Shown one piece after another: positions 5,648 to 11,565 of a stretch of 48,914 nucleotides of DNA. Made by a program: the position numbers and the translations under genes. The notes beneath the pieces are model-generated. The model made no database searches. It worked only from the letters and a program-made list of their open reading frames with translations, and was not told the origin of the DNA. This DNA comes from Dehalococcoidia bacterium. GTDB lineage: Bacteria > Chloroflexota > Dehalococcoidia > Tepidiformales > Tepidiformaceae. Position 1 is the stretch's first letter, and every line of letters begins with the position of its first letter. The stretch spans positions 1-48,914 of the forward strand of contig JADZEI010000006.1 in NCBI GenBank assembly GCA_020850615.1. Direction: 5' to 3'.

Positions 5648-6553
5648 GTGCTTGGGATCGCGCTCCCGCCGCTGCTCGTCGCCATGCGCCCATTCCAGTG
5701 GCCGAAGAACGGGCTGGTGTTCGCCGCGTTCATCTTCAGCGCGGGCGACGCGTGGTCGCCATCGTCGCCGGAGGAGTGGTGGCCGAAGCTGTGGCGGACG
5801 GCGGCGCTGTTTGGGCTCTGGTGCCTGGCCGCGAGCGCGGTCTACCTGCTGAACGACATCCGCGACCGCGCGGCCGACCAGGTGCACCCGCGCAAACGGC
5901 ACCGGCCGATCGCCAGCGGCGCCGTCTCGGTGCGCTCAGCCCGGACGACGGCGATGGTGTTGATCGCAGTCGCGCTGCCGCTGGGGTTCCTGCTGCACGT
6001 GGTCACGGGCGCGATCCTGGCGGGCTACACGGTGGTGATGATCCTCTACTCGTTCGGGCTCAAGGAAGTGCCGATCATCGACGTGCTGATCCTGGTCGGC
6101 GGGGTGATCGCGCGGGCGGTGGCGGGGGGCGCGGCGATCGATGTCGACATCAGCCCATGGCTGTACGTCTGCAGCGGCTTCGGCGCGTTCTTCCTGGCGA
6201 TCAGCAAGCGCTGGGCGGAGTACCGGCAGCTGGGCCCCGAGGCAGCGCTCCACCGGCCGGCGCTGGCACAGTACCAGGGCGAGGCGCTGGGCCAGCTGCT
6301 CACGATCAGCGCCGCGACGGCGATCCTCGCGTACGCGCTCTACAGCATCGAATCGGTGAACGTGCCGCGAAACGGGAGCATGGCGCTGACCGTGCCCTTC
6401 GCCGCGTTCGGGGTGTTCCGCTACCTGCTGCTGCTGAACGGCAACCGGCGGGACGACGCGCCGGACCAGATCGTGTTCACGGATCCGCAGATCGTGCTCG
6501 CGGTCATCGGCTTCGTGGTGACGGCGATGGTGGTGATGGTGGTCAACCGGTAG
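5648..6553 (+). CDS. UbiA family membrane prenyltransferase, decaprenyl-phosphate phosphoribosyltransferase-like
   Basis: About 301 residues with 8-9 hydrophobic segments. The first conserved segment MRPFQWPKNGLVFAAFIFSA and the aspartate motif NDIRDRAADQVHPRKRHRPI closely resemble the branch that transfers phosphoribosyl from PRPP to polyprenyl phosphate (mycobacterial Rv3806c type), which makes the arabinose donor for cell-envelope glycans. The NDxxDxxxD motif binds Mg-diphosphate at the membrane face. The start is uncertain: a GTG at 5648 gives a reasonable N-terminus, an in-frame GTG at 5600 would overlap ybaK by 31 nt, and ATG 5684 (MRPFQW) would be the shortest. The actual substrate is inferred from motif style only. 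Confidence 0.8.
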   Translation: MLGIALPPLLVAMRPFQWPKNGLVFAAFIFSAGDAWSPSSPEEWWPKLWRTAALFGLWCLAASAVYLLNDIRDRAADQVHPRKRHRPIASGAVSVRSARTTAMVLIAVALPLGFLLHVVTGAILAGYTVVMILYSFGLKEVPIIDVLILVGGVIARAVAGGAAIDVDISPWLYVCSGFGAFFLAISKRWAEYRQLGPEAALHRPALAQYQGEALGQLLTISAATAILAYALYSIESVNVPRNGSMALTVPFAAFGVFRYLLLLNGNRRDDAPDQIVFTDPQIVLAVIGFVVTAMVVMVVNR

Positions 6554-6582
6554 GGCGCGGCCGCGCGGGCCAGGTACGCAAA

Positions 6583-6608
6583 CGAGGCCCCGCTGGTGCG
6601 GGGCCTCG
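6583..6608 (-). terminator. Hairpin terminator downstream of the RnfD-like gene
   Basis: A perfect 11-bp stem (6583-6593 with 6598-6608) with TGGT loop is followed on the minus strand by TTTGCG, so it best serves the leftward rnfD-like operon. It lies 8 bp past that gene's stop and also after the rightward UbiA gene. Confidence 0.65.
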
Positions 6609-6616
6609 CCGGTGGT

Positions 6617-7672
6617 TCAGTGGTGGACCGGGCGGCGAAAGAGCTCGTCCGGGGGCGGTACCTCGGCGGCCGGGTCGGCCGGGGGCGGTGCGCCGGCACC
6701 AGCGCGGTACCAGAGCGGCGATGCGTGCCGGTTCGGGCCAGCGGCGCTGCGGCTCACCACGGAGGCGAGGGGCGGCGCGGGGCTCGCGGGACGGCGGACG
6801 ATTCCCCCGGGCTTCGCAGCCGACGGGCGGGCAGCGGGGCGGCGCTTGCGGTCGCGCTGGGCGAGCCACTTGCGTGTGCCCTCGTAGGCGTTGCCCACCA
6901 GGAGCGCCGCGGGCAGGAAGTACACCCACCCGAAGAGCTGGAACACCGCGAACGCGGCGGCGGCGACGATGAAGGCGTAGGCCGCCTGGTCGCGGAACTT
7001 CACCGGGCAGGTGGGCGGGTCGTCGGCCATGAAGAACACGAAGAACAGGACGGCGTGGATGTCTGGCGCGCGGAAGATCTCGGCGACCTGCGCGCCTTCG
7101 CCGTTCAGGCTGGCGAGCGTGAAGAGCGAGAAGTACGTGCCGAGGAACGTGAGCACGAGCGGCCACTTGTTGATCCGGTCGGCGATGTAGGCGCCGGCGA
7201 CGATGAGGACGGCGACGCCGAGCCATTCGTACTCCGGCAGGGCGCCCCACCAGCTCTGGATGCTGTCGAACAGCACCGAGACGACGACGATGGCGAGCGC
7301 CGCCGGGTTGAACACGTTCGCGAGGCGCGTGCGGAAGAGGTGCTTGCTCGCGAGGGCGATGACCGTGGCGGCGACGGGGATGATGACGTCCTCGTAGGGG
7401 CTGAGGACCATCGCGATGATGAGCGCGGTGAGGATGCCACCGTCCGGGAAGGCCCAGGTGTGGCGGTGGAGCCGCGCGACCGTGACATCGACGATGGCGG
7501 CGGCGGCGACGGCGCCGATAAGCCCGGGGAGTACCTGCGCCGCGCCTTCGGACGGGATAGCGAGCGCGAGGATGCCCGCGAAGATGAGGAGGAGCTGGCC
7601 CTTGGGCGCGCGGACCAGCTTCTTCAGGCTGCGCAGCGGCGACGGTGCGGGGCGGGCGGCGATGGCGGTCAT
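6617..7672 (-). CDS. RnfD/NqrB-like membrane electron-transport subunit with Pro-rich tail
   Basis: 351 residues. The first 260 have about nine hydrophobic helices with family landmarks: WAFPDGGILTALIIAMVLSP, RTRLANVFNPAALAIV (the FNPA motif), GAYIADR and FFVFFMADDPPTCPVKF. These identify the NqrB/RnfD fold, which carries flavin and takes part in membrane electron transfer. The usual S-G-A-T flavinylation motif of true RnfD/NqrB is not found, so it probably has no covalent FMN of its own. Residues about 265-351 form an Ala/Pro/Arg-rich tail, likely cytoplasmic and disordered. The ATG overlaps the apbE stop by 4 nt, so it is translationally coupled to an ApbE and an FMN-binding protein. Other Rnf subunits are not present in the window. 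Confidence 0.78.
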   Translation of the reverse strand: MTAIAARPAPSPLRSLKKLVRAPKGQLLLIFAGILALAIPSEGAAQVLPGLIGAVAAAAIVDVTVARLHRHTWAFPDGGILTALIIAMVLSPYEDVIIPVAATVIALASKHLFRTRLANVFNPAALAIVVVSVLFDSIQSWWGALPEYEWLGVAVLIVAGAYIADRINKWPLVLTFLGTYFSLFTLASLNGEGAQVAEIFRAPDIHAVLFFVFFMADDPPTCPVKFRDQAAYAFIVAAAAFAVFQLFGWVYFLPAALLVGNAYEGTRKWLAQRDRKRRPAARPSAAKPGGIVRRPASPAPPLASVVSRSAAGPNRHASPLWYRAGAGAPPPADPAAEVPPPDELFRRPVHH

Positions 7673-8622
7673 TTCTGGTACCTCTTGAAGCCGCGGGTTT
7701 CGAAGCGTTCGCCCGCGGGCGTGACGAGCATGCCCTCCACGCCGGCGCGCTCGACCAGGGCGAGTCCCTCGCCCGGCCCCAGGACGAACGCGGCCGTCGC
7801 GAGCGCGTCGGCGAGCATGGCGGTGGGCGCGACCACGGTGACGGAGGCCAGGGCGGTCGCGCTCTCGCCACTTGCGGGGCGGAGGATGTGGTGGCCGCCG
7901 GCGGCGGTCCGCTCGTAGTCGCCGGAGGTGCAGACGGCGCCATCGGCGATGTCGAGGACCGCAAGCAACTCGGCGGGGTCGCGCGGGTCGCGGACGCCGA
8001 TGCGCCAGGGCTTGCCCGCGCCGTTGCGCCCGCGCGCGAAGATGTCGCCGCCGGCGTTGATGGCGACGCCGGGGAAGCCGGCGAGGGCCTGCGCGGCGAG
8101 GTCGATGGCGAAGCCCTTGGCCACGCCGCCGAGGTCGAGCTGGAGCGGCCGCCGGAGCGTGACGCGGGAGCGGCGCGGCTCCAGGGCGATGTCGCGGAAG
8201 GTGGCGCGCTGGGCCGGGCGCGCCCGGGGAGCGGCGCGGTCGCCAGTGCGGTAGTTGCGGTCGAAGCCGGCGCGCTCCATGGCCTCGCCGATGGTGGGTT
8301 CGAAGGCGCCGCCGCTATCGCGGGCGACCGCGAGGGCGAATTCGAGCGCGCGGAAGAGCAGGGGGCTCACGTCGACCGGCTCCCCGTCGCGTTCGCAGAG
8401 GCGGCGGAGCTCGCTCGCGGGGTCGAAGCGGCTGCAGACGCGCTCCACCTCGGCGAACCAGCCGAAGGCGGTATCGATGGCCGCGCGGACGCGGGCCTCG
8501 CCGTCGCTGCTGACGACCTCGATGGTCACGGGGGTGTCCATGAAGACGCGGGACTGTCCGATGGCCAGCATGGGGGCGGCACCTCCGGCGGTGCGGTCTC
8601 GGGAGGGGACTGACGTGGTCAT
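7669..8622 (-). CDS. apbE: FAD:protein FMN transferase ApbE
   Basis: 317 residues from the ATG at 8622. Conserved ApbE landmarks are present in order: F..FD..SELRRL, LDLGGVAKGFAIDLA (about 170-184), AINAGGDIFARG, AVCTSGDYER, GHHILRPASGE and VVAPTAMLADALATAAF. The enzyme uses FAD and Mg2+ to attach FMN through a phosphoester to a Thr/Ser of target proteins outside the cytoplasmic membrane. The clear target is the neighbouring FMN-binding protein. The start codon overlaps that gene's stop (TGATG), and its own stop overlaps the rnfD-like start (ATGA). The open frame runs far upstream through the neighbouring gene, but that extension is an out-of-frame shadow. No signal peptide is obvious at this start. 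Confidence 0.93.
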   Translation of the reverse strand: MTTSVPSRDRTAGGAAPMLAIGQSRVFMDTPVTIEVVSSDGEARVRAAIDTAFGWFAEVERVCSRFDPASELRRLCERDGEPVDVSPLLFRALEFALAVARDSGGAFEPTIGEAMERAGFDRNYRTGDRAAPRARPAQRATFRDIALEPRRSRVTLRRPLQLDLGGVAKGFAIDLAAQALAGFPGVAINAGGDIFARGRNGAGKPWRIGVRDPRDPAELLAVLDIADGAVCTSGDYERTAAGGHHILRPASGESATALASVTVVAPTAMLADALATAAFVLGPGEGLALVERAGVEGMLVTPAGERFETRGFKRYQK

Positions 8623-9215
8623 CACGCTTTCGCCTTCGCCAGGGCGGCCGCGACCGCGTCCATGAACGCCTCGGAGCTCTCGGTCGCGCCGGAGACGTGG
8701 TCGGTGGTGGCCTGCTGCGCGGCGAGCACCTTCGCCGGGAGCGAGCTGATGCGGGAGCAGGGGTAGCGCGTGTTGCAGGACGTGATCTCCGCCGAGACCA
8801 GCTGCCCATCCTGGACGACGACGGTGACGGTGATGCCGCCGTGGCGGCTGCTGCCGGTGCCGGTGTAGGTGCCGTCGGCGTAGCCGGTGCTGGCGGCGGT
8901 GGCGGTTGCCGTGGCGGTCGCCGTCGCGGTAGAACCGGTCCCGGCCGTTGCGGTGGAGGTGGCGGTGCCCGACGCCGTGCCCGTTGCGGTCGTGGCTGTG
9001 GCGGCGGGCGTGGTGGCGGTGGCGGTCGTCGCGGTGGGGGTGACGAGGGCGACCGAGCCCTCGGCGGAAGTGGCATCGCCGCTGCTGACGTAGCCCACGG
9101 CGTAGACGGAGAGGATGGCGGCGGTGCTCAGGCCAACCATGCTGGCCTTGAGGCGCCCGGGGCGCCGCTTCATCCACCAGTCGTTCCTGTTGGGAGCCCG
9201 TCGATCCTGGACCAT
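8622..9215 (-). CDS. Membrane-anchored FMN-binding (flavinylated) protein
   Basis: 197 residues. A cytoplasmic basic N-terminus precedes one hydrophobic segment (about 24-43). A low-complexity Thr/Ala linker (about 58-110) follows, encoded by near-tandem GCGGT-type repeats. An FMN_bind domain occupies about 110-197. The domain ends with DHVSGATESS, where Thr178 in SGAT is the residue that ApbE esterifies with FMN. C147 and C153 in SCNTRYPC may form a disulfide outside the membrane. The ATG has an AGGAG site 7 nt upstream. It is the first gene of an FMN_bind-apbE-rnfD-like operon. It probably shuttles electrons between the membrane RnfD-like protein and an extracytoplasmic partner; the partner is unknown. 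Confidence 0.88.
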   Translation of the reverse strand: MVQDRRAPNRNDWWMKRRPGRLKASMVGLSTAAILSVYAVGYVSSGDATSAEGSVALVTPTATTATATTPAATATTATGTASGTATSTATAGTGSTATATATATATAASTGYADGTYTGTGSSRHGGITVTVVVQDGQLVSAEITSCNTRYPCSRISSLPAKVLAAQQATTDHVSGATESSEAFMDAVAAALAKAKA

Positions 9216-9310
9216 GGTGTGTCTCCTGCATTCCGGTAAGCGGCTGTGAGCACGGTAGTGCTCGAAGATTGGAACTCCATTTGAAGGTGAAGGCCCATGT
9301 ACCCGGGGCG

Positions 9311-9340
9311 GCGGGCGGACAGTGCCTGCTGTCCGCCCGC
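9311..9340. terminator. Strong hairpin in the 9216-9562 intergenic region
   Basis: A perfect 12-bp GC-rich stem (9311-9322 with 9329-9340) with a 6-nt loop. There is no T-run on either side, so Rho-independent termination is uncertain. It lies 20 bp past the stop of a short leftward reading frame (9360-9476) and about 95 bp upstream of the FMN-binding protein gene. Confidence 0.5.
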
Positions 9341-9359
9341 CCGGGAATGGGAGGGAACC

Positions 9360-9476
9360 CTACGTCGTGGGCGTGCCGAGCGTGACCGTCACGGTCATGA
9401 GCTCGCCGTCGAACATCTCCTTCGCCCGATGCCCGTGGAGCGCTTTCGTGCACCGGGGCCCCGGGGTTGTGTCCAC
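9360..9476 (-). pseudogene. Possible cupredoxin C-terminal remnant, 38 codons
   Basis: A short leftward frame ends RCTKALHGHRAKEMFDGELM plus about 10 residues, then a stop. C-x6-H-R-A-x-x-M followed by a beta-strand-like ELMTVTV recalls the copper-ligand C-terminus of type 1 blue copper proteins, where Cys, His and Met lie close together (usual Cys-His spacing is slightly shorter). Nothing upstream encodes the rest of a cupredoxin, no convincing start or ribosome site exists (GTG 9476 is only an option), and the region is otherwise non-coding. It is best read as a decayed gene end or a chance similarity. Confidence 0.25.
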
Positions 9477-9562: not shown

Positions 9563-10243
9563 ATGCACCTCCTACTCGTCGAAGATGAGCGCCGCCTGGC
9601 CGTCGCGGTCCGCCGGGTGCTCGAAGAAGAAGGCCACGTGGTCGACATGACGGGCGACGGCGCCGATGCGCTCGCCCAGGCGGAAGCCGAGGAGTACGAC
9701 GTGATCGTGCTCGACGTGATGCTGCCGTCGATGGATGGCTACGAGATCGCGCGGCGGCTGCGGAGCTCCGGCGACCCAACGCCGATCCTCATGCTGACCG
9801 CACGCGATTCGATAAAGGACCGCGTCACCGGGCTCGATGCGGGCGCGGACGATTACCTGGTGAAGCCGTTCGCGCTGGCGGAGCTGCTCGCGCGGATCCG
9901 GGCGCTCGGGCGCCGCAACCACATGGGCAACGGCGCCGAATCGAACGTGCTCAGCGTGGGCGACCTGGAGCTGGACCTGCGCGCCCGGGAGGCGCTCCGC
10001 GACGGCAAGCGGATCGAGCTGACGACGAAGGAGTTCGCGCTGCTCGAGACGCTGATGCGGCACCCCGGCCAGGTGCTCACGCGCTCGCAGCTGTTGGACC
10101 TGGTCTGGAGCTACGACCTCCTGACCGAGTCGAACATCGTCGACACGTACATCCACTACCTGCGGAACAAGATCGACCGCGACTTCGACCAGAAGCTCAT
10201 CCGCACCGTGCGCGGCGCGGGCTATTCGATCCGGGCAAGCTGA
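9563..10243 (+). CDS. OmpR/PhoB-family response regulator
   Basis: 226 residues. The receiver domain (about 1-115) has the acidic pair E7/D8, phosphoacceptor D51 in VIVLDVMLPSMDG, Thr in MLTAR and Lys in YLVKPFALAEL. The C-terminal winged helix (about 130-226) shows LELDLRAREA, LTTKEFALLETLMRHPGQVLTR and the terminal TVRGAGYSI signature. The sensor kinase gene overlaps its stop (TGATG), so they form one two-component operon. A dyad just upstream may be its own binding site. The stimulus and regulon are unknown. Confidence 0.93.
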   Translation: MHLLLVEDERRLAVAVRRVLEEEGHVVDMTGDGADALAQAEAEEYDVIVLDVMLPSMDGYEIARRLRSSGDPTPILMLTARDSIKDRVTGLDAGADDYLVKPFALAELLARIRALGRRNHMGNGAESNVLSVGDLELDLRAREALRDGKRIELTTKEFALLETLMRHPGQVLTRSQLLDLVWSYDLLTESNIVDTYIHYLRNKIDRDFDQKLIRTVRGAGYSIRAS

Positions 10244-11565
10244 TGTTCCAGAAAGCGCGCCTGCGACTGGCCCTCTGGTTCGCCGGGGTGATGGCGGTGG
10301 TCCTCCTCGTCGTGGGGACGGGCGCGTACCTGGTCTCGCGGCGGGAGCTGGACGAACAGATCGACGACTCCATCGCGCTCGCGACCGAGGACATCGACAT
10401 GCGCCTGCCGTGGCGCGACCTTCCTTCGGAGTCTGACGTCGACGACCCGTACCCCGACCGCGGGCACGACCGCGGGCCCAAGCCGTATTCGACGGACGTC
10501 TGGGAGGTCGTGCTTTCGAGCGAGGGCGACGTCCTGATGAACCAGCGCGAGCTCAACGTCGAGCAGTTCCCGGTCGATACGGTGCTCGCTGCGGAGGGCA
10601 CGGAGCCGGTGTGGGTCACGTTCACGGCCGACGGAGAGCACTACCGCGCGGCGGCGCTGGCGGTGGAGTCGCCATTCCCGGGGCAGGCGCCGGTGGTCAC
10701 GGTCGTGGGGCGGTCGCTGGAGGCGCGGGACTACCAGCTGCGGCTGCTCGCGTACGTGCTGGCGGGCGGCGGGTTGGGCGGTGTGGCGATGGCGGCCGTG
10801 GGCGGGTTCTGGCTGGCTGGCCGGGCGCTCGTGCCGATCCGCACGTCGCTCGAAACGCAACGGCGGTTCATCTCGGACGCGTCGCACGAGCTGCGCACGC
10901 CAATCGCGGTGATGAAGGCGAACGCGGAGCTGCTCCTGCGGCACCCTGAGCAGAGCGTCGAAGCGAACATCGACCAGGTGGCCGCGATCAACGAGGAGTC
11001 AGATCACCTGACGCGGCTCGTGGGTGACCTGCTGACGCTGGCGCGCGCCGACGAGCAGCGGCTCGACGTGGTGCGCCAGGAGGTGGACCTGGACGAGGTG
11101 CTGGGTTCGCTGGTGCGGGACATGGGTGCGCTGGCCGAGGCGAAGGGCGTGCAGCTCACCGGGCAGTTCACCGCCGGCGAGGTGGAGGGCGACCCGCAGC
11201 GGCTGCGCCAGCTGACGGCGATCCTGCTCGACAACGCGCTGAAGTACACGCCAGAGGGCGGCCGGATCGACGTGCGCGCCAGCCGGCAGGGCTCGCGCGT
11301 GACGCTCTCGGTGAGCGACACGGGCCCGGGCATCGCCCCGGAGCACCTCGGCCACATCTTCGACCGCTTCTACCGCGCGGACACGGCCCGGGCGCCGCAG
11401 ACGGGCACCGGGCTGGGGCTGGCGATCGCGAAGTGGATCGCGGAAGCGCACAACGGGCGCATCGCCGCGGAATCGCAGCCCGGGCACGGCGCGACGTTCA
11501 CGGTGCGGCTGCCGCGGGGCCACGTCTCGCGCGGGAGCGCGGCCCCGGACGGCCTGCGCGCCTGA
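10243..11565 (+). CDS. Membrane sensor histidine kinase
   Basis: 440 residues. The first transmembrane helix is at about 9-31, an acidic extracytoplasmic sensor region at about 35-165, and a second helix at about 168-193. There is no full HAMP domain. FISDASHELRTPIAV contains the phosphoacceptor His215. The ATPase domain has N box LLDNALKYT, G1 DTGPGIA, F box IFDRFYR and G2 GTGLGLAI. It phosphorylates the response regulator encoded immediately upstream. The acidic sensor region (for example DDPYPDRGHDRG) might sense cations or envelope stress, but that is speculation. Its stop abuts the convergent ThDP enzyme gene with no gap. Confidence 0.92.
   Translation: MFQKARLRLALWFAGVMAVVLLVVGTGAYLVSRRELDEQIDDSIALATEDIDMRLPWRDLPSESDVDDPYPDRGHDRGPKPYSTDVWEVVLSSEGDVLMNQRELNVEQFPVDTVLAAEGTEPVWVTFTADGEHYRAAALAVESPFPGQAPVVTVVGRSLEARDYQLRLLAYVLAGGGLGGVAMAAVGGFWLAGRALVPIRTSLETQRRFISDASHELRTPIAVMKANAELLLRHPEQSVEANIDQVAAINEESDHLTRLVGDLLTLARADEQRLDVVRQEVDLDEVLGSLVRDMGALAEAKGVQLTGQFTAGEVEGDPQRLRQLTAILLDNALKYTPEGGRIDVRASRQGSRVTLSVSDTGPGIAPEHLGHIFDRFYRADTARAPQTGTGLGLAIAKWIAEAHNGRIAAESQPGHGATFTVRLPRGHVSRGSAAPDGLRA

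Follow-up and report, generated by a model that had tools for sequence, protein, structure and literature searches.

In a Dehalococcoidia genome, three overlapping genes make up a recurring and apparently undescribed version of a flavin-based system already known, one without the part that collects electrons from NAD(P)H. They lie as an operon on the minus strand of the 48,914-nucleotide stretch of DNA analysed here (the window), in the order FMN_bind protein (P0001), FMN transferase ApbE (P0002) and NqrB/RnfD-like membrane protein (P0003), and translate into 197, 317 and 351 amino acids, respectively. A sequence-only reading of the window had proposed these identities together with TGATG and ATGA overlaps, leaving the strand unstated. 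Translation and reading of the junctions bear out the overlaps, and Pfam the identities, with matches for all three genes that lie far above chance level. The features discussed below are the following:

8622..9215, minus strand: FMN_bind protein P0001, with a signal-anchor helix, a Thr/Ala stalk and a C-terminal FMN_bind domain (PF04205, E 2.6e-7)
9087..9143, minus strand: membrane anchor of P0001, residues 25-43, predicted N-in/C-out by the positive-inside rule (charge count)
8886..9059, minus strand: Thr/Ala-rich stalk of P0001, residues 53-110
8757..8777, minus strand: Cys147-x5-Cys153 pair of P0001, flanking the presumed flavin-ring loop (alignment with the TPGLG loop of RnfG)
8682..8693, minus strand: SGAT motif, predicted flavinylation site with acceptor Thr178 (Thr or Ser at the acceptor place in all 26 members)
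7669..8622, minus strand: P0002, the FMN transferase ApbE, lacking both signal peptide and lipobox (PF02424, E 2.7e-64)
6617..7672, minus strand: P0003, an NqrB/RnfD-like membrane protein that lacks both the covalent-FMN loop and an NAD-binding domain (PF03116, E 5e-15; no PF00175)
7019..7429, minus strand: span of P0003 with Thr82, Asn119, Asn122 and Asp218, equivalents of riboflavin contacts (alignment to NqrB)
6620..6820, minus strand: proline-rich C-terminal tail of P0003, seen in no other member
9563..11565, plus strand: response regulator (9563-10243) and sensor kinase (10243-11565), divergent from the operon (Pfam)

Distribution and relation to known systems

How widespread is this arrangement? 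Combining three surveys, we find 27 loci in 23 Chloroflexota genomes that encode the form without NAD-binding domain (hereafter NAD-less). The survey of related genomes covered 99, nine of which matched, the window's included; that of the phylum covered 400, with 67 matching at E 1e-8 and the scores falling into 16 places in 12 genomes at 242 bits or above and a remainder at 85 bits or below; and that of the class covered 393, with 12 matching at E 1e-25, three of them new. Presence is patchy, most family and class genomes in the 99- and 393-genome surveys being without an NAD-less locus. An FMN_bind gene lies directly upstream in 26 of the 27 loci, the exception (L020) beginning at a contig end with a 27-residue ApbE remnant, and in 18 of the 27 ApbE sits between FMN_bind and the membrane-protein gene. 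The trio is thus conserved in relatives, a point on which the sequence-only reading had staked its proposal. ApbE is not in between in eight loci (L018, L055, L058, L059, L060, L064, L065 and L067); six of these genomes carry ApbE elsewhere, and none was found in the other two, both incomplete.

More distant occurrences were also encountered. Solo NqrB/RnfD-like proteins without FMN_bind or ApbE are encoded at L068-L075 and L121 (4824-5621), and a plasmid search returned a single remote solo protein and nothing else; in a Metabacillus plasmid, a solo NqrB/RnfD-like gene overlaps a redoxin gene. At L077, L081, L084, L107, L108 and L109, the NqrB/RnfD-like domain is followed by a long C-terminal part, for which L077, L081 and L084 gave no further Pfam match, and neither FMN_bind nor ApbE was found within 2.5 kb.

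In excerpts of the published descriptions, NQR/RNF-like flavinylation systems are characterised by a fused PF00175 NAD-binding domain (Meheust et al. 2021, PMC8238504; Huang et al. 2024, PMC11334425). Pfam finds no such domain in P0003, while a control protein (L078) shows both domains, and P0003 thus lies outside the NQR/RNF-like systems as so defined. The two forms otherwise have much in common: FMN_bind, ApbE and NqrB/RnfD-domain genes stand in the same order with PF03116 clustered with FMN_bind/ApbE, the membrane protein is without a covalent-FMN site, and the tethered FMN is proposed to meet a non-covalent flavin directly. In the 19 fused loci that we verified, FMN_bind adjoins in all 19 and ApbE in 18. 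What separates the window's form is the absence of PF00175, a well-supported branch of its own, Asp instead of Glu at the place of NqrB Asp346, and an invariant Lys24. In a tree of 61 rows, among them 24 NAD-less proteins (of the 27 loci) and 19 fused ones, all 24 NAD-less proteins fall on one side of a branch with support 100/99, and the 19 fused proteins likewise on one side of another (100/99). Long branches leave the position of canonical RnfD unsure, so we make no statement on which form came first. Compared as profiles, the two forms match with a probability of 99.2 (E 2.8e-19). A search for homologues of the fused NAD domain, made with one query sequence and so leaving room for other reductase types, drew a blank within 2.5 kb of each of 24 NAD-less loci and also in the three later, short loci. 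A literature search confined to titles and abstracts, supplementary files excluded, brought up no paper that we recognised as describing the NAD-less form.

The FMN_bind and membrane subunits are homologous to NqrC and NqrB of Na+-NQR and to RnfG and RnfD of RNF, with the riboflavin-contact residues mostly retained. In contrast to those complexes, the covalent-FMN loop is deleted from the membrane subunit and the FMN_bind protein has no TPGLG loop. No NqrDE/RnfAE, NqrF/RnfB or NqrA/RnfC genes were seen beside the window's operon, and within the window's genome PF03116 matches P0003 only. With no other core subunit seen and the loop missing, this is not a canonical RNF or NQR complex; L086 and L087, from elsewhere in the same class, have complete-looking RNF operons with a lipoprotein-type ApbE. 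MsrQ-like flavinylation systems, as described in an excerpt of PMC8238504, likewise consist of FMN_bind, ApbE and one membrane electron-transfer protein, but the latter is a predicted heme protein (PF01794) from another family than NqrB/RnfD.

The membrane subunit

The sequence-only reading had singled out P0003 for having no SGAT motif of its own. A scan for [ST]GA[TS] indeed finds none in the protein, but this is a published trait of NQR/RNF-like subunits, and the true distinction of P0003 from them is the absent NAD-binding domain. A profile of nine P0003 homologues matches RnfD (8ahx_D, E 9.5e-10) in two stretches that stop at RnfD residue 143 and resume at 213, skipping the place of the covalent-FMN loop. 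The loop stretch measures 43-44 residues in two canonical RnfD proteins of the same class (L086, L087), seven in all 24 NAD-less proteins and four in all 19 NAD-fused ones.

The non-covalent flavin site tells a different story. An excerpt of the structural work on NqrB names Thr162, Asn200, Asn203 and Asp346 as riboflavin contacts (Kishikawa et al. 2022, PMC9325719); aligned via L086 to NqrB chain 7xk3_B, these residues map to Thr82, Asn119, Asn122 and Asp218 of P0003. Across the 24 NAD-less and 19 fused proteins, the Thr162 place holds Thr (12), Ser (11) or Cys (1) in the former and Thr throughout in the latter; the Asn200 place, Asn (11) or His (13) versus His throughout; the Asn203 place, Asn in every member of both; and the Asp346 place, Asp in all NAD-less and Glu in all fused proteins. 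With these contacts kept and the loop deleted, the non-covalent flavin site looks retained and the covalent one gone.

The proline-rich tail of P0003, noted in the earlier reading, is a real open frame but no family feature, as relatives end soon after the last helix. Its codon composition departs from that of the rest of the gene (GC by codon position 0.84/0.70/0.85, versus 0.68/0.47/0.96). A structure model of P0003, built on an alignment of two sequences, reached a mean pLDDT of 42.9, and we draw no inference from it.

The FMN_bind protein and its transferase

P0001 scores 31.6 bits against the FMN_bind cut-off of 22. Hydropathy gives it a hydrophobic N-terminal anchor, as in most relatives, preceded by eight K/R and two D/E and followed by no K/R, and by the positive-inside rule the FMN_bind domain is predicted to face outside. 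Both the Thr/Ala stalk (24 Thr and 19 Ala among 58 residues) and the SGAT site with Thr178 as acceptor, claimed in the sequence-only reading, hold up; the motif occupies residues 175-178 and fits [ST]GA[ST]. The structure model of P0001 (mean pLDDT 51.6) is poor outside the FMN_bind domain, and the top three Foldseek matches of this low-confidence model, FMN_bind domains in 8p2a and 8p2b (E 2.4e-3 to 8.8e-3), may at most be taken as supporting evidence. Among 26 family members, the acceptor residue is always Thr or Ser, and [ST]GA[ST] is kept in 19 and altered in seven, to SGST (L015, L019, L119), SRAT (L057, L063, L066) or TRAT (L017). Since L017 is the sister sequence of the window's, flavinylation is not guaranteed in every member.

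In P0002, Ser233, His245 and Asp272, invariant in seven of seven compared ApbE proteins, correspond by position to what is probably the Ser-His-Asp of ApbE named in an excerpt of a review (PMC12052999). Comparison of N-termini revealed no hydrophobic export signal among 15 ApbE proteins of NAD-less loci, P0002 included, and inspection none in 18 of fused loci, where the start of L106 is unsure for its long open frame. The RNF-linked ApbE proteins of L086 and L087 both have a lipoprotein-like N-terminus. According to the same review excerpt, ApbE retained in the cytosol did not restore growth of a knock-out strain (PMC12052999). Pairing a signal-less ApbE with an outside FMN_bind domain raises the question of where flavinylation happens in such bacteria. 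We considered a Tat signal as a general answer and rejected it, as the SRR-like motifs that precede the anchor in some relatives are absent from the window's protein. The window's genome contains a second ApbE gene without evident signal peptide (L085, 7311-8174), and P0001 is the sole FMN_bind match there.

Electron path and neighbouring genes

What could such an operon do? We tentatively favour, at a little below even weight, a two-protein transmembrane flavin wire with its maturation enzyme, in which a general carrier, menaquinol in the first place, feeds the inner flavin and electrons run outward. Starting from the observed gene content, order and conservation, the lost loop and the kept residues, we infer cofactors, donor, direction and acceptor as follows. 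ApbE would attach FMN to Thr178 of the anchored, stalked P0001, and P0003 would hold a non-covalent flavin that takes electrons from the general carrier, probably menaquinol. Since the second covalent FMN of NqrB and RnfD is missing, the tethered FMN would then swing onto the outer face of P0003 for a direct exchange of electrons, and these would pass outward through the tethered FMN to an outer acceptor. A general carrier seems the likeliest source for the inner flavin given the lack of an NAD-binding domain and of an adjoining dedicated reductase gene, since one would sooner expect a dedicated donor to be encoded alongside the operon. The window's genome has menB, a menaquinone gene, and two heme-copper oxidase genes scoring over the cut-off. 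The sequence-only reading had likewise pictured a compact module between the membrane and a flavin protein outside, which fits gene order, riboflavin-site residues and acceptor residue; the outward flow that it proposed, and any acceptor, are putative. If the wire model is true, NqrB/RnfD folds can act as a free-standing electron bridge without pump partners, second covalent FMN or NAD domain, and the operon would offer a very small system for direct tests of how electrons pass between a flavin in the membrane and one outside.

Several observations count against the wire model, namely the apparent lack of the NqrB quinone helices, the unconserved Glu157 place, the motif departures in 7 of 26 FMN_bind proteins, the signal-less ApbE, and ApbE standing apart in 8 of 27 loci. 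As to the helices, an excerpt of PMC12174285 states that the NqrB quinone pocket is built by two N-terminal helices that are absent from RnfD. P0003 has just 22 residues ahead of the conserved PKG motif at helix 1 and apparently none of the N-terminal amphipathic helices of that site, and the Glu157 place varies among its relatives (D, S, T, L or M). The short N-terminus and the variable Glu157 place speak against a copy of the NqrB quinone site but leave quinone access itself untouched. A more far-reaching version, namely the smallest known transmembrane flavin wire, made of one non-covalent flavin in a single membrane protein and one tethered FMN and drawing on the quinone pool rather than on NAD(P)H, with FMN attached in the cytosol by the signal-less ApbE before export and a redox-active Cys pair relaying electrons, we consider quite improbable.

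Alternatively, the same wire could be fed by a soluble cytosolic protein encoded elsewhere, such as an NAD(P)H reductase or ferredoxin, docking in RnfC-like fashion on the basic inner face of P0003. In sister systems, the same protein carries a fused NAD domain (excerpt of PMC8238504), RnfD, without quinone helices, exchanges electrons with RnfC (excerpt of PMC12174285), and Lys24, Lys110, Arg114, Arg166 and Lys169 are invariant in an alignment of nine P0003 homologues. Yet no gene for such a donor recurs beside the 24 examined loci, and we regard this version as unlikely, if deserving of serious attention. Inward flow, in which the tethered FMN is reduced by an outside donor and P0003 hands the electron on to menaquinone, and so into the respiratory chain, would follow the direction of the NqrC-NqrB-quinone half of NQR (excerpt of PMC12174285) and accord with the heme-copper oxidases and menB of the window's genome. 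It appears distinctly unlikely, as the neighbourhoods of the 24 loci show no recurring gene for an outside dehydrogenase or other donor, and published relatives are proposed to run outwards (excerpt of PMC8238504).

The outer acceptor might instead be thiol-based, with Cys147 and Cys153 of P0001 forming a dithiol/disulfide relay with the tethered FMN. Both cysteines are present in 14 of 26 members and a single one in none, and they sit on either side of a loop whose counterparts in alignments are ETPNLG in 8p2b and ETPGLG in the RnfG of L086. We take this TPGLG loop to correspond to residues 172-176 of NqrC. Those residues form the flavin-ring pocket in an excerpt of PMC12174285. However, 12 of 26 members have neither cysteine, the tree would allow the pair to have been acquired just once, so that a structural disulfide, which would give the same pattern, is as possible as a redox role, and a thiol-exchange gene recurs beside none of the 24 loci; we hold such a relay to be highly improbable. 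Least credible of all is the view that the genes are a standard NQR/RNF-like system and that assembly error or decay removed the NAD domain in the window's genome. Gene order is the same as in fused systems, but 27 loci from 23 genomes share the NAD-less form, which branches separately from the fused one at 100/99, and this recurrence refutes the reading as a lone artefact.

Returning to our favoured wire model, its surroundings provide few partners. Constant neighbours, which the sequence-only reading had suggested looking for, are absent across the 24 NAD-less loci, save for a two-component gene or pair beside three. Two-component genes adjoin the operon in the window, in L016 (99 bp; 5952-7232) and in L058 (75 bp; 7246-8577), and the kinases of L016 and L058 give full-length alignments with that of the window (46% and 38%). 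The divergent response regulator and sensor kinase are thus possible regulators of the operon. A cupredoxin gene was considered as the acceptor and discarded: a C-x-H-x-M pattern lies at about 9360-9470 on the minus strand, but its open frame has no Pfam match and the pattern is unique to the window among the 24 loci, which makes it a relic or chance. Between the response regulator and FMN_bind genes, the window also contains a perfect 13-bp inverted repeat with a 6-nt gap (9310-9341).
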